This document shows, in pieces, positions 22,772 through 44,891 of a stretch of DNA of 64,000 bases (position 1 is the first letter of the stretch; each line of letters starts with the position of its first letter). Origin of the DNA: Oceanobacillus luteolus (lineage in GTDB: Bacteria > Bacillota > Bacilli > Bacillales > Amphibacillaceae); assembly GCF_023715655.1 (NCBI RefSeq), contig NZ_JAMBON010000001.1, positions 310,001 through 374,000 on the forward strand, in the 5' to 3' direction. A program made the translations under genes and the position numbers. Under the pieces are notes generated by a model, which did no database searches, was not told where the DNA came from, and worked only from the letters and a program-made list of their open reading frames with translations.

Positions 22772-24052
22772 TTAATTCCCTCCTTCTGAAGTGAGGAGAT
22801 ATAGCGTATCTTCCTGGATTTTTTCTCCAACACGAACAACTTCTTCTTTTGTCACTGCAGAAATCTTAGTAATGATTTCTTCTAGGGTCCGCTCATAATT
22901 TGCAAGTTTTTGCTGATAAAACAATTCGACTAGTCCATGATTGTTATCCATCGTCTCACGCAAATAATGGATGATCATGTCTTTCGCCTCATTCATTTCT
23001 TGTTCCGTAAAGTTTCCAGCCTTCATTTCCTGCATTTGTTCCCTAATAATATCTCGTGCTTTTTCATAATCTTCAGGTGCGATTCCACTAAAGACAAAAA
23101 GCAGTCCTTTATGACTTTCTACTTGAGAAGAAGCATAATAGGCAAGGCTATTTTTTTCCCTTACATTCATGAACAGCTTAGAACTCGGGAAACCACCAAA
23201 CAGACCATTAAAAACTTGTAAAGCTGGATATTCTTTATCAGAATAAACCGTATTTGTCCTATAACCGATATGCAGCTTTGCCTGTTGTATTGGTTCTTTT
23301 TCTATAATTTCTTTTGGTTTATCAACCTGTTTCTCAGTTTTAGTTTGATTGGCTCCTGCTTTATTTATGGAATCTCGTTCAAATATAGTAGTTATTGCCT
23401 CTTCAATATATTGAGGATCCATATCACCGACAACATAAATATCCATTTCGTCAGTTTTCACCATTTCCTTATAATAAGCAAATAGATCTGCTCCTGTAAT
23501 GGTCTCAAGTTCATCTTCATAGCCATTTACATGTATGGAATAAGCTTCACCTTCACACATTTCTTCAATTAACCGCATATTTGCATAACGGATTTTGTCA
23601 TCGCGGATTGCTTGAATTCTTTGCTTCAAAGTTGCCTTTTCACGATTTACAATTCTTTCTGCAAATGAATTATTTTCAAGATGTGGAGCAAAAATCAGTT
23701 CTGATAAAAGTTGGAGAGCCTCTTCTGTTATTTCTTCTTTCTCTGGGAGATATCTTTGATTGGCCACTTCCAAACGGAAGCTGATGATATGATCTTCTCC
23801 TTTTTTTGCCCCATCAACAGATAGTACCGCTCCATATAAATCATCCAACTTTAATTGTAATTCCGTCCGACTTGGATAATTCTTCGTTGCCTCTCTTAAT
23901 ACATTTGGCAACAGGGCACGCTTGGTTATCGTATCTTTGTTTAATGGCGCTTTCGACTTAATAACAAAAGTGAGTGTCTTAAATTTTTTCGTTGGGATAA
24001 AATGAATATGATAACCGTTTTTATTAACGGTTTGTTCCTCAATTAAATTCAT
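22772..24052 (-). CDS. ymfF: M16-family protein YmfF, lacking the zinc motif
   Basis: An M16 peptidase-like protein (426 residues from the ATG chosen) without a recognisable HXXEH motif. The corresponding region reads TKRALLPNVLREATKNYPSRTEL. The later segments YGAVLSVDGAKKGEDHIISFRLEV and the SKLFMNVREKNSLAYYASS R/Y-type motif are present. That pattern fits the non-catalytic half of an M16B heterodimer with YmfH. The ATG at 24052 is favoured over the adjacent upstream GTG because AGGAGG is about seven bases away. First gene of the ymfF-ymfH-ymfI-ymfJ cluster; a terminator at 24186-24223 isolates it from the nup operon. Confidence 0.9.
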   Translation of the reverse strand: MNLIEEQTVNKNGYHIHFIPTKKFKTLTFVIKSKAPLNKDTITKRALLPNVLREATKNYPSRTELQLKLDDLYGAVLSVDGAKKGEDHIISFRLEVANQRYLPEKEEITEEALQLLSELIFAPHLENNSFAERIVNREKATLKQRIQAIRDDKIRYANMRLIEEMCEGEAYSIHVNGYEDELETITGADLFAYYKEMVKTDEMDIYVVGDMDPQYIEEAITTIFERDSINKAGANQTKTEKQVDKPKEIIEKEPIQQAKLHIGYRTNTVYSDKEYPALQVFNGLFGGFPSSKLFMNVREKNSLAYYASSQVESHKGLLFVFSGIAPEDYEKARDIIREQMQEMKAGNFTEQEMNEAKDMIIHYLRETMDNNHGLVELFYQQKLANYERTLEEIITKISAVTKEEVVRVGEKIQEDTLYLLTSEGGN

Positions 24053-24185
24053 CACACGGCCTCCTATAATGATATCTTATTATTCATATTAAATATTCTA
24101 CACATCTTTCATAGGTTCATCCATTAAAAGATACTTATTTTCCACGGCTTAAGACTATTTTAGTTCCCGTTATCGGATGATATGA

Positions 24186-24223
24186 AAAAAACTGACTTGA
24201 TTTCAAAAATCAAGTCAGTTTTT
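24186..24223 (-). terminator. Intrinsic terminator after the nup operon
   Basis: Long stem AAAACTGACTTGATTT / AATCAAGTCAGTTTT with loop CAAA and a T-run on the minus strand, ten bases past the stop of the last permease gene. Confidence 0.93.
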
Positions 24224-24233
24224 CCTGTACTAT

Positions 24234-25184
24234 TTAACGGCTCCCTTTAATATATGGTACTCCGTTTGCCTTTGGCGCATCGGCACGGCCAATCAGCCCT
24301 GCAAGTGCCAAGATAGTCAACACGTAAGGGGCTATCAACAGAAACACTTGTGGGATATCTTCAATTACCGGAATAGAAGATCCGACAATGCTTAGACTTT
24401 GAGCAAATCCGAAGAAGATTGCTGCTCCCATTGCACCGAGCGGATGCCATTTCCCAAAAATAACAGCTGCGAGGGAAATGAATCCCTGTCCTACTATTGT
24501 TGATTGAGAGAAGTTAGAAACGATAGTAAGCGCGAATACGGATCCGCCTAAACCACCTAAGATTCCTGATAAAACAACTGCAATATAACGTATTTTTTTC
24601 ACATTAATTCCGTTTGTGTCTGCCGCCATTGGATGTTCACCAACAGCACGTAAACGTAGACCGAAAGTCGTTTTATATAAAACAAACCAAGCAACAAAAG
24701 CTAAAATGATTGCTAAATAAGAAGTCGCATAGACCCGTTCAAAGAAAATAGGACCGATGACAGGAATATTCGACAATACAGGTATATCAGTGCGGAAAAA
24801 ACCTTCCACCATATCTGTTTGCCCTTTATCATACCACTGCTTTGTCAAATAGACACCGATGCCAAGCGCGAGCATATTAATCGCTACTCCACTCACGACT
24901 TGATTTGCGTAGAATGAAACGGAAGCCACAGCATGGATGATAGAAAAGATTCCTCCAATAATTGCTGCTACTACAATGGCGATCCAAGGTGTTAGAGCAC
25001 CGAATGTACTCTGATAAGTCAAGCTAAATACTATACCAACAAATGCACCAATTACCATTAATCCTTCTAATCCAATATTAACCACACCAGAACGCTCACT
25101 GAAAACCCCGCCTAAAGCCGTCAATATTAATGGTGCGGAGAAGAACAGTATAGTGGGTACTATCGATTGTAATAAATCAATCAT
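24234..25184 (-). CDS. nupQ: Nucleoside ABC transporter permease (NupQ-type)
   Basis: Inner-membrane permease of 316 residues in the BPD_transp_2 family. Multiple hydrophobic helices are evident, with conserved GGVFSERSGVVNIGLEGLMVIGA near the N-terminus and TFGLRLRAVGEHPMAADTNGINV in a cytosolic loop, typical of the second permease of nucleoside importers. It abuts the other permease gene with no gap. With nupP, nupO and nupN it forms a complete importer, in B. subtilis used for guanosine and other nucleosides. Exact substrate range here is inferred. Confidence 0.9.
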   Translation of the reverse strand: MIDLLQSIVPTILFFSAPLILTALGGVFSERSGVVNIGLEGLMVIGAFVGIVFSLTYQSTFGALTPWIAIVVAAIIGGIFSIIHAVASVSFYANQVVSGVAINMLALGIGVYLTKQWYDKGQTDMVEGFFRTDIPVLSNIPVIGPIFFERVYATSYLAIILAFVAWFVLYKTTFGLRLRAVGEHPMAADTNGINVKKIRYIAVVLSGILGGLGGSVFALTIVSNFSQSTIVGQGFISLAAVIFGKWHPLGAMGAAIFFGFAQSLSIVGSSIPVIEDIPQVFLLIAPYVLTILALAGLIGRADAPKANGVPYIKGSR

Positions 25185-41928: not shown

Positions 41929-42097
41929 CTAATATAGTGCTCCTTTCAATACAACATCATCTTAAATGTATTAAATCGGAAAATCATCCGCTTTCCTAAA
42001 AACAGTCATTCTTACTCTAGAATAAACGATAGTAGTATGAGAATCAAACTGTAAGTCTATTCATGTGCCATCCATCAACTAATTTTAATTAAAAGAA

Positions 42098-42119
42098 AAA
42101 GCAGGATTTCTCCTGCTTT
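42098..42119 (-). terminator. Intrinsic terminator after rpsO
   Basis: Perfect stem AAAGCAGGA / TCCTGCTTT with loop TTTC, followed by TTTTTCTTTT on the minus strand. Confidence 0.92.
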
Positions 42120-42130
42120 CTCTAAAAATA

Positions 42131-42400: not shown

Positions 42401-42480
42401 TGGGTCCACCTCCTATATCTTAAAATTAACCCCAGTCACCTAGCAATCGTCGGAGTTACGATTTGCCAAGAGATGGTTTA
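42401..42480 (-). promoter_or_regulatory. Possible S15 autoregulatory leader
   Basis: The leader between promoter and rpsO contains a short stem ATCGT / ACGAT (around 42440-42462) and a G-rich run (GGTGACTGGGG on the minus strand) near the ribosome-binding site. S15 represses its own mRNA through leader structures in Geobacillus and other bacteria, so such an element is expected. The match to a specific S15-binding fold was not tested. Confidence 0.35.
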
Positions 42481-42488
42481 TCTTTATC

Positions 42489-42517
42489 AGTATATCTTTC
42501 CTCGACAAAAAAATCAA
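42489..42517 (-). promoter_or_regulatory. SigA promoter for rpsO
   Basis: TTGATT (42512-42517) and TATACT (42489-42494) on the minus strand, spacing 17 bases, about 90 bases before the rpsO start. Confidence 0.65.
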
Positions 42518-42537
42518 GGTTTTACACTTAAAAATAA

Positions 42538-43473
42538 TTAGTGGAAATAATTTCGAATGTCAACTTCATCACGGGCTAGTTGTTCGATTAAGCTTTCAGC
42601 ATCCGGGAACACCTGTTCCTCACGGATAAATTTATGCCATTCTATTTGTAATTCTTCCCCATATAAGTCGTTATTATAATCAAAGATATTCACTTCAACT
42701 GATAAATTACCTTGATCCTCTTTGAATGTCGGGTTTGTCCCGATACTTGCCATACCTTCATACACAGCGTTTTTATAAATGACTCTTACAGCATATATAC
42801 CGATTTTAGGAAGTAAAGCATCTTCAACTATTCTTAGGTTTGCAGTAGGATAACCAAGATCTCTTCCTCGTTGTGCTCCACGTATCACGACGCTTGTGTA
42901 CTTCAATGGCCTTTTGAGCAATTTATTAACTGTTTCAACATTTCCTTGTTTCAACAGTTCTCTGATACGTGTTGAACTCACCTTCTCGTCATCCAAGGTA
43001 ACTTTATCGATAACAGTATAGTCAAATTTACCACGGGTATAGTCGGAAATATTCGTCATATTCCCTGACCCTTTATGTCCAAAACTATAATCAAAACCTG
43101 CTACAAGGTGTTTTATGTTCAAACCGATAATAAAATGATCGATAAATTCTTGCGGACTTAGCCCAGATAGTTCTTTATTAAACTCGATTATATATAATCT
43201 GTCCACATTCATCTTTTGCAGAATTTCTTGCTTTTCTCGTAAAGGTGTAATGTATTGCACATGTCTTGTTCCTTTTTTCAAGACAACCGATGGATGTGGG
43301 TGAAAAGTTATCACAGCACTTTCCATGCCGTTTTCTTGCGCGACTTGTACAGCTTTACCAATGACTTGCTGATGTCCTTTATGTATACCGTCAAAAAAAC
43401 CTATGGCACATACGGTTTCGGGCATATCATCCACTTCAAAATGATGTGGATAAGTCAACTCGAATGTTCTCAC
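42538..43473 (-). CDS. ribF: Bifunctional riboflavin kinase / FAD synthetase
   Basis: Makes FMN from riboflavin and FAD from FMN; called ribC in B. subtilis. The 311-residue protein has the N-terminal FAD synthetase nucleotidyltransferase domain with IGFFDGIHKGHQQVI (near 26-40) and SSTRIRELLKQGNV, then the riboflavin kinase domain with RGRDLGYPTANLRI and GIYAVRV. The start codon is GTG with a GGTGA site upstream. It follows truB by 17 bases. It ends shortly before the rpsO promoter and has no clear terminator. Confidence 0.96.
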   Translation of the reverse strand: MRTFELTYPHHFEVDDMPETVCAIGFFDGIHKGHQQVIGKAVQVAQENGMESAVITFHPHPSVVLKKGTRHVQYITPLREKQEILQKMNVDRLYIIEFNKELSGLSPQEFIDHFIIGLNIKHLVAGFDYSFGHKGSGNMTNISDYTRGKFDYTVIDKVTLDDEKVSSTRIRELLKQGNVETVNKLLKRPLKYTSVVIRGAQRGRDLGYPTANLRIVEDALLPKIGIYAVRVIYKNAVYEGMASIGTNPTFKEDQGNLSVEVNIFDYNNDLYGEELQIEWHKFIREEQVFPDAESLIEQLARDEVDIRNYFH

Positions 43474-43490
43474 GTCAATTCACCTACTTT

Positions 43491-44387
43491 TTATAAAGCT
43501 TTAAAGATCCGGACCGGTTTTATTTCATGCTCATTCTTTTCATGCAGTTGATAAATAGCTAACAATTCATCTTGATGCATCATAAGAAATGGAGTGCTCT
43601 CCGGAATCTTATCTGGCATCGGTAACTTTTGTCCATATGAAATCTTTTGTTTTATATATTCATCCACTTCAATTTGTGATAAGTGATTCAATCCTGACAC
43701 AATCGGCTGCAATAATTTTTGGAGTTTATCTTCCTCCTGAGCCTGATGGATATCATCGAATGTGTATGAACCGTCTTTATCGAAGCTTCCGGTTTTAATT
43801 CTTTCAAGAAAAGACATATGTGCGGGAAAACCGAGTTTTTTTCCGATATCAACACAAAGCGTTCTGATATAAGTTCCCTTTGAACATGTTACCTGAAATT
43901 TGATACTATGGTCCTCTTCATTAACCAGTAATCGATCAATCGAATAAATATGGATGGTCCTTTTTGGACGTTCGACCGATTCGTTGGCTCGCGCATATTC
44001 ATATAATTTCTTTCCATTCACTTTTACTGCAGAATACATTGGCGGGATTTGTATTGTGTCACCAAGGAATGATTGAAGCACTTTGTCGATCTGTTCTAGA
44101 GAAGGCATGGAATTTACTTCCGCTGTCTCTACTACTTCCCCATAGCTGTCTTCCGTTTCCGTTGTTTTGCCAAGTTGCACTTCTGCGATATATACCTTTT
44201 TCGTATCCATTAAATAAGGCACAATTTTAGTAGCTTGACCAATACAAATAGGAAGGACCCCTTCTACTTCAGGGTCTAAAGTTCCGGTATGGCCGACTTT
44301 TTTAGTTTTAAAGATTTTGCGTATTTTCATAACGCAATCATGGGAAGTCCAACCTCTTGGCTTCCATAATGGAAGGATTCCATCCAT
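43491..44387 (-). CDS. truB: tRNA pseudouridine synthase B
   Basis: TruB makes pseudouridine 55 in the T-loop of tRNAs. The 298-residue protein has the catalytic motif VGHTGTLDPEVEGVLP (Asp near 38) and the RNA-binding segment KVNGKKLYEYAR, plus CSKGTYIRTLCVDIG. The ATG at 44387 is chosen since GGGAGTG lies seven bases upstream; the in-frame ATG five codons earlier overlaps that site. It is followed closely by ribF. A structured 160-base spacer separates it from rbfA. Confidence 0.96.
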   Translation of the reverse strand: MDGILPLWKPRGWTSHDCVMKIRKIFKTKKVGHTGTLDPEVEGVLPICIGQATKIVPYLMDTKKVYIAEVQLGKTTETEDSYGEVVETAEVNSMPSLEQIDKVLQSFLGDTIQIPPMYSAVKVNGKKLYEYARANESVERPKRTIHIYSIDRLLVNEEDHSIKFQVTCSKGTYIRTLCVDIGKKLGFPAHMSFLERIKTGSFDKDGSYTFDDIHQAQEEDKLQKLLQPIVSGLNHLSQIEVDEYIKQKISYGQKLPMPDKIPESTPFLMMHQDELLAIYQLHEKNEHEIKPVRIFKAL

Positions 44388-44434
44388 TTTATTCACTCCC
44401 ATAACTCATATAAATAAAAAAGGGCAATGAAAAG

Positions 44435-44543
44435 TTCTGACTCTTCAAATCGAATAGTTGATCCTCATCTAAAACCATCTTTTAGGTGAGGACCAATCCA
44501 TTTCGCAGTCTCTGCTTAAGAAAATAAGAACGAGGAGTCAGAA
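44435..44543 (-). other. Structured spacer between rbfA and truB
   Basis: Outer arms TTCTGACTC (44435-44443) and GAGTCAGAA (44535-44543) are perfectly complementary and enclose an inner hairpin, TCCTCATCTAAAA (44462-44474) against TTTTAGGTGAGGA (44480-44492), with one mismatch and a five-base loop. On the minus strand the outer stem is followed after about ten bases by a T-run (CCCTTTTTT). It could be a terminator, an attenuator or a processing site. I know of no family that it matches. Confidence 0.6.
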
Positions 44544-44549
44544 TCTCCA

Positions 44550-44891
44550 TTATTTATTCAGATCCCTGAGAATCGTTTCAATCCGGTTCCCATATTCATA
44601 TGCTTCATCAAATTCAAAAAGGAGCTCAGGAGTTTTTCTGAGACGGATTCTTTTACCAATCTCCGAACGGATAAATCCCTTAGCTTTCGTGAGCCCAAGA
44701 AGTGTTTCTTGTTTCTCTTTATCCGTCCCTAATACTGAGATATAAATGGTTGCTTGTTGTAAGTCACCAGTAACTTCTACATCAGTCACCGTAACAAATC
44801 CAACTCTAGGATCTTTTATTTTTGCTGTTAAAATCTCGCCCAGTTCTTTCTTCATTTGTTCGGCAACACGATTGGCACGTAATTCAGACAT
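44550..44891 (-). CDS. rbfA: Ribosome-binding factor A
   Basis: RbfA binds the 30S precursor and helps 16S maturation, especially in the cold. The 113-residue protein has the KH-like fold typical of the family: [41 protein letters not shown] and the [17 protein letters not shown] end. It follows ylxP by 40 bases in the rimP-nusA-infB operon, and is followed by the structured spacer described above. Confidence 0.96.

Follow-up and report, generated by a model that had tools for sequence, protein, structure and literature searches.

The results presented here indicate that an operon-internal, partial intrinsic terminator probably lies just after the rbfA stop codon of Oceanobacillus luteolus; from sequence comparison we estimate the probability of this reading at about 0.75. 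Polymerase coming from rimP-nusA-infB-rbfA would transcribe a hairpin and a U-tract just past that stop codon, where a fraction of the transcripts would end while the remainder would read through into truB-ribF, so that expression of truB and ribF would be lower than that of the upstream genes. The principal evidence is that a hairpin followed by a T-run is conserved at the rbfA-truB junction but not at the neighbouring junctions, and that its pairing has been maintained. In the species studied here polymerase would meet the same stem with a loop insertion forming a second hairpin and with an interrupted U-tract. We infer that termination takes place in the cell, that it is partial, and that the output ratio is the object of selection.

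The site is located in a stretch of 64,000 nucleotides (the window), on the minus strand of which infB, ylxP (DUF503), rbfA, truB and ribF form one operon, as judged from open reading frames and Pfam matches (Table 1). An earlier sequence-only reading, which left the strand unnamed, had proposed about 160 structured bases between rbfA and truB. Same-strand open reading frames flank the structure, and its position is thus internal to the operon, between co-directional genes, and not at the operon end. The gap measures 162 nt (44388-44549), and the preferred truB start is the ATG at 44387, preceded by GGGAG (44396-44400); the ATG at 44402 is also open. As that reading had it, most other junctions in the window are short or overlapping (infB-ylxP overlap, ylxP-rbfA 40 nt, truB-ribF 17 nt), but the ribF-rpsO gap of ∼128 nt is also long. 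Folding confirmed that the structure is real and above chance: the sense strand of the gap (165 nt) folds at -52.1 kcal/mol versus -34.5 +/- 3.7 for shuffled sequences (z -4.8), and none of 200 shuffles was equally stable. Rfam covariance models gave no gathering-level match in the window, leaving riboswitch, T-box and ribosomal-protein leader families all unmatched; the best sub-threshold match, rli36, reached 21 bits versus the 50 required and lies on the opposite strand.

Table 1. Positions of the features discussed (window coordinates, except for the last line, which gives loci).
Feature	Position	Strand	Remarks
rbfA	44550..44891	-	Pfam RBFA PF02033, E 2.6e-38; upstream of the structure
Stem 5′ arm, RNA UUCUGACUC	44535..44543	-	6 nt past the rbfA stop codon; matches the AATCTGACTC arm of relatives
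Nested hairpin in loop	44452..44504	-	inside a stretch of ∼70 bases that O. indicireducens and O. alkalisoli lack
Stem 3′ arm, RNA GAGUCAGAA	44435..44443	-	outer pair U-A; A-U in 47 of 50 related distinct sequences
First U-rich tail, CUUUUC	44429..44434	-	adjoins the stem; can pair in part with the GGAGA that precedes the 5′ arm
Second T-run (U6)	44416..44421	-	GCCC between the extended stem and U6
truB	43491..44387	-	Pfam TruB_N PF01509, E 2.1e-58; first gene downstream of the structure
ribF (FAD synthetase / riboflavin kinase)	42538..43473	-	Pfam FAD_syn and Flavokinase; second gene downstream
rpsO 3′ terminator	42094-42123	-	stem AAGCAGGA/TCCTGCTT or AAGCGGGA/TCCCGCTT in most of 53 loci
nrnA-like gene at the junction	L191, L193-L195, L199-L201, L203-L213, L226, L227		DHH/DHHA1

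A hairpin was scored as terminator-like when its dG was <= -8 and at least 5 of the next 8 bases were T. By this rule 76 of the 80 named loci carry a terminator-like hairpin between rbfA and truB, versus 0/80 at infB-ylxP, 2/80 at ylxP-rbfA and 1/79 at truB-ribF in the same loci, and between 9 and 22 of the 80 rbfA-truB gaps passed after shuffling (10 dinucleotide-preserving rounds). Among order-level genomes the hairpin is present in 89 of 98; the figure for relatives is 88 of 97, since the window's own row was scored through its nested hairpin and is removed (the 98-genome count omits L001, L037, in which truB is incomplete and whose genome was re-fetched as L110, and L072-L081). The named and unnamed sets overlap, their 178 rows representing 154 distinct gaps. 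A passing hairpin was found in 142 of these on the sense strand, at a median distance of 10 nt between stop codon and stem, and in 88 on the antisense strand; an antisense terminator is accordingly the weaker interpretation, though antisense termination may occur as a side effect. Twelve distinct gaps lack a passing hairpin, three of them (L036, L039 and L041) because of their TTTTCCC tails. In the relatives the T-run directly follows the 3′ side of the stem.

At the rbfA-truB position at least five stem sequences occur (AATCTGAC, AAAACCCTTGT, AGGATAGAC, ACTGATCC and AAGCCTGC), several of them unrelated. The occurrence of several stem sequences at one position argues for selection on pairing and not on one particular sequence. 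Covariation, for which the sequence-only reading had proposed a search in relatives, was analysed in one of these groups, class A, which comprises 50 distinct sequences. Of the cells of its 10-pair stem, 98.4% form pairs, and 22 cells are changed on both sides versus a mean of 2.8 after shuffling, a value reached by none of 500 shuffles. Similarly, the covariation score of 0.203 (0.146 +/- 0.009 when shuffled) was reached in 0/500 shuffles, and pairing falls to 19-46% when the partners are slid out of register. These values have to be read with the knowledge that the class-A sequences are related and were selected by a pattern requiring TCTG and TCAGA, which also favours part of the pairing elsewhere in the stem; the four pairs that never vary prove nothing, because they are imposed by this selection. 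Earlier runs used 45 of the 50 sequences (without L013, L031, L041, L086 and L144) and were repeated with all 50. The changes on both sides indicate that the pairing has been maintained, conservation of pairing in close relatives being one of the points on which the earlier reading had staked its proposal.

A genus-wide search of 28 genomes, with a model built from many of the same rbfA-truB loci and with 150 candidates per genome scored, placed all matches at E <= 0.01 at the rbfA-truB junction (20 genomes); weaker matches occur elsewhere in the genomes. A regulon of similar terminators was rejected on these grounds, matches at E <= 0.01 being confined to rbfA-truB in the 28 genus genomes. 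The best class-A model match in the window is a bidirectional terminator-like hairpin at 24179-24230, between the open reading frames 22772-24055 and 24234-25184, with the similar stem AAAACTGACTTG...CAAGTCAGTTTT.

The hairpins of the relatives have a dG of about -12 to -25 and are thus as stable as ordinary terminators, which would also be expected if termination were complete, the operon ended at rbfA, and truB-ribF were transcribed from their own promoter. Long gaps in some relatives would leave room for such a promoter. Many gaps, however, are only 70-90 nt long, with ∼30-45 nt remaining between the hairpin and the truB start codon, and promoter-like sites are no commoner in the window region than chance would give (14 against an expected 16.9), none being well placed in the gap. 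Since the short gaps would cramp a promoter and promoter-like sites do not exceed chance, we infer read-through into truB. A promoter within rbfA would not change this, as its transcripts must still pass the hairpin. Complete termination therefore appears unlikely to us. If polymerase runs ahead of the ribosomes, as is stated for B. subtilis (PMC9226507), a ribosome standing at the end of rbfA would not necessarily prevent the hairpin of the proposed partial terminator from forming; we assume by analogy that the same would hold for Oceanobacillus.

Once RNase Y or RNase III has cut, the hairpin might instead shield the upstream mRNA at its 3′ end, in which case the ratio would be set by decay. 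Stem-loops between genes reportedly do so in clostridial SRPS operons (PMC8219983 and PMC4423207); stabilising a 3′ end after processing is another role open to hairpins followed by a T-run, and the stem extends into part of the U-tract. Processing, however, needs no T-run, and in the class-A alignment the T-run that follows the stem hardly varies, whereas the bases preceding the stem do vary. This pattern fits sense-strand termination better, and we regard a processing or stabilising element as improbable.

The window copy of the stem has peculiarities of its own. In agreement with the sequence-only reading, which had described nine-base-pair closing arms about 90 bases apart and a T-run, TTCTGACTC (44435-44443) and its 9-bp partner GAGTCAGAA (44535-44543) pair without a mismatch across an interval of 91 nt, and on the minus strand they are followed by CTTTTC and then by T6. 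In the RNA the order is CUUUUC next to the stem, then AUUGCCC, then U6. The nested hairpin was described there as having 12 pairs and one mismatch; the mismatch is correct, and the pair count is slightly higher, the 39-nt core (44458-44496, minus strand) containing 9 + 6 pairs around one internal mismatch. Against the terminator reading, the window copy, with its loop of ∼90 nt and imperfect U-tract, was missed both by a simple terminator scan and by the class-A covariance model.

The nearest named RbfA proteins are those of O. indicireducens (94%) and O. alkalisoli (93%), whose rbfA-truB gaps of 84 and 85 nt contain the plain hairpin AATCTGACTCC...G(A/G)GTCAGATTTTTCCATG. Aligned to both species, the window retains the stem and what follows it and has ∼70 more loop bases; the borders of the insert are uncertain because the loops cannot be aligned. 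The outer stem pair shows a compensatory change, from A-U in the relatives to U-A in the window; the related distinct sequences other than those with A-U comprise one with G-U and two, L031 and L086, in which the outer cells are unpaired. In the other 27 genomes of the genus nothing beyond short, weak matches to the nested hairpin was found, and its own genome gave no second copy with up to 3 mismatches allowed. It thus looks like a lineage-specific insertion. A mobile repeat was rejected as its source, the sequence being single-copy in its own genome and without a match among plasmids and phages. The insert is flanked by AGAG, a possible 4-bp direct repeat that is too short to mean much. The insert could be without effect or could weaken the terminator; as the genome is a draft of 206 contigs, it could also be an error of the assembly. 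The long loop and interrupted U-tract suggest weaker termination, and the window terminator would be slower-folding and probably leakier. The window copy may therefore serve as a natural experiment on the effect of a long structured loop on terminator strength. In four other Oceanobacillus loci (L029, L032, L034 and L110) the rbfA-truB gap is 742, 673, 615 and 864 nt long, respectively; their long inserts sit downstream of the same hairpin and are GC-rich and repeat-like.

The stability of the nested hairpin, far above that of shuffled sequences (z -4.9 for the core, for which 0/200 shuffles were as stable, and -4.7 for a 59-nt form), would be expected if it formed, together with the outer stem, a species-specific attenuator sensing a ligand or a protein. 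Its apparent restriction to a single site among the 28 genus genomes searched argues against this, however, as do the lack of an Rfam match and the minimum-energy and centroid folds, which contain no mutually exclusive antiterminator, and we consider such a sensor very improbable. The sequence-only reading had offered three options: an attenuator setting the ratio of truB-ribF to the upstream genes, a sensor, and an RNase Y processing site. The first gives the best fit, given the conserved terminator-like stem, the T-run and the covarying pairs, but its sensor-type, multi-stem form does not, and the sensor itself found no support. The proposed multi-stem RNA is a real structure but not a new RNA class, its multi-stem look being due to the nested hairpin. 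The site looks more like an ordinary, constitutive partial terminator than like a multi-stem sensor.

Similar arrangements have been described elsewhere. ABC-importer operons of Ruminiclostridium cellulolyticum contain internal intrinsic terminators with measured efficiencies of 20.7-96.1% (PMC9045158). As in the present case, these stem-loops lie just after an operon gene and have U-poor or partly paired U-tracts (their types II-IV), for which partial read-through is expected; they belong, however, to another operon and another bacterial class, whereas the rbfA-truB position is found order-wide in a core translation operon and is known from sequence. The partial terminator between secA and prfB of B. 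subtilis (PMC8073009) is likewise operon-internal, is found in a member of the Bacillales and parts the genes of a translation-related transcript, but it is a different locus and was established by Rend-seq. The rimP-leader, a conserved terminator with a GGGc...gCCC stem before the first gene of the rimP-nusA-infB operon (PMC2965389), belongs to the same nusA-infB operon. The rbfA-truB site, by contrast, is mid-operon, has several stem sequences and lacks the GGGc...gCCC motif; identity with the rimP-leader was rejected, as the window stem TTCTGACTC/GAGTCAGAA is located between rbfA and truB and not upstream of rimP. In the literature searched, whose scope left out B. subtilis Rend-seq of this junction, we found no paper describing an rbfA-truB terminator. 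If termination is indeed partial, the core translation operon of this order would have a fixed step-down between rbfA (ribosome assembly) and truB-ribF (tRNA modification and flavin synthesis), and annotations treating rimP to ribF as one equal unit would be wrong.

At the class level, 40 genomes were chosen from 299 searched, and truB is within reach in 38 of these loci (not in L193 and L212). Twenty of them have a DHH/DHHA1 gene between rbfA and truB, identified by Pfam for the L195 protein and by tblastn similarity to it for the other 19. We take this gene to be nrnA, a family presumably usually found between rbfA and truB. First-scan hairpins at these loci fall inside the nrnA gene itself, and a separate junction test was therefore used: the nrnA-bearing junctions are tight and terminator-free (rbfA-nrnA 0/20, nrnA-truB 0/18). 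A hairpin is found in 18 of the 20 class-level genomes without nrnA at this position. Hairpin presence thus coincides with absence of nrnA from the junction, and the hairpin may have arisen with nrnA loss; through this coincidence the origin of internal terminators becomes testable. A more elaborate scenario, which we regard as speculative and rather doubtful, is that the terminator replaced nrnA in the ancestor of the order and provides feedback: NusA, the product of an upstream gene of the operon, would strengthen this terminator with its weak tail, and high levels of NusA and of the upstream translation genes would thereby throttle truB-ribF and with it tRNA pseudouridylation and the supply of FAD, the Oceanobacillus insert having retuned the site.

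The 3′ terminator of rpsO was used for comparison. Its stem (AAGCAGGA or AAGCGGGA) is conserved to a similar degree, so that conservation of stem sequence alone points to no regulator, and the idea that the conserved rbfA-truB stem is a sign of a binding protein is unsupported. In the same loci, the 10-nt tail contains on average 6.73 T at rbfA-truB versus 7.59 at the rpsO terminator. For the 49 of 72 loci matched by the tail patterns used, the rbfA-truB value was lower in 32, equal in 10 and higher in 7 (Wilcoxon p 1.8e-5, a value that ignores kinship). The T-poorer tails speak mildly for a leaky terminator and deviate in the same direction as the leaky internal terminators described in PMC9045158. 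Upstream of rpsO, the ribF-rpsO gap (42410-42537, minus strand) gave no Rfam gathering match in the window. Ahead of rpsO, most of the listed named loci share a strongly conserved block, ACC-TCGCTTGGCA...TAACTCCGACG...TTGCTAGG...TGGGG, which we presume is probably the S15 autoregulatory leader.
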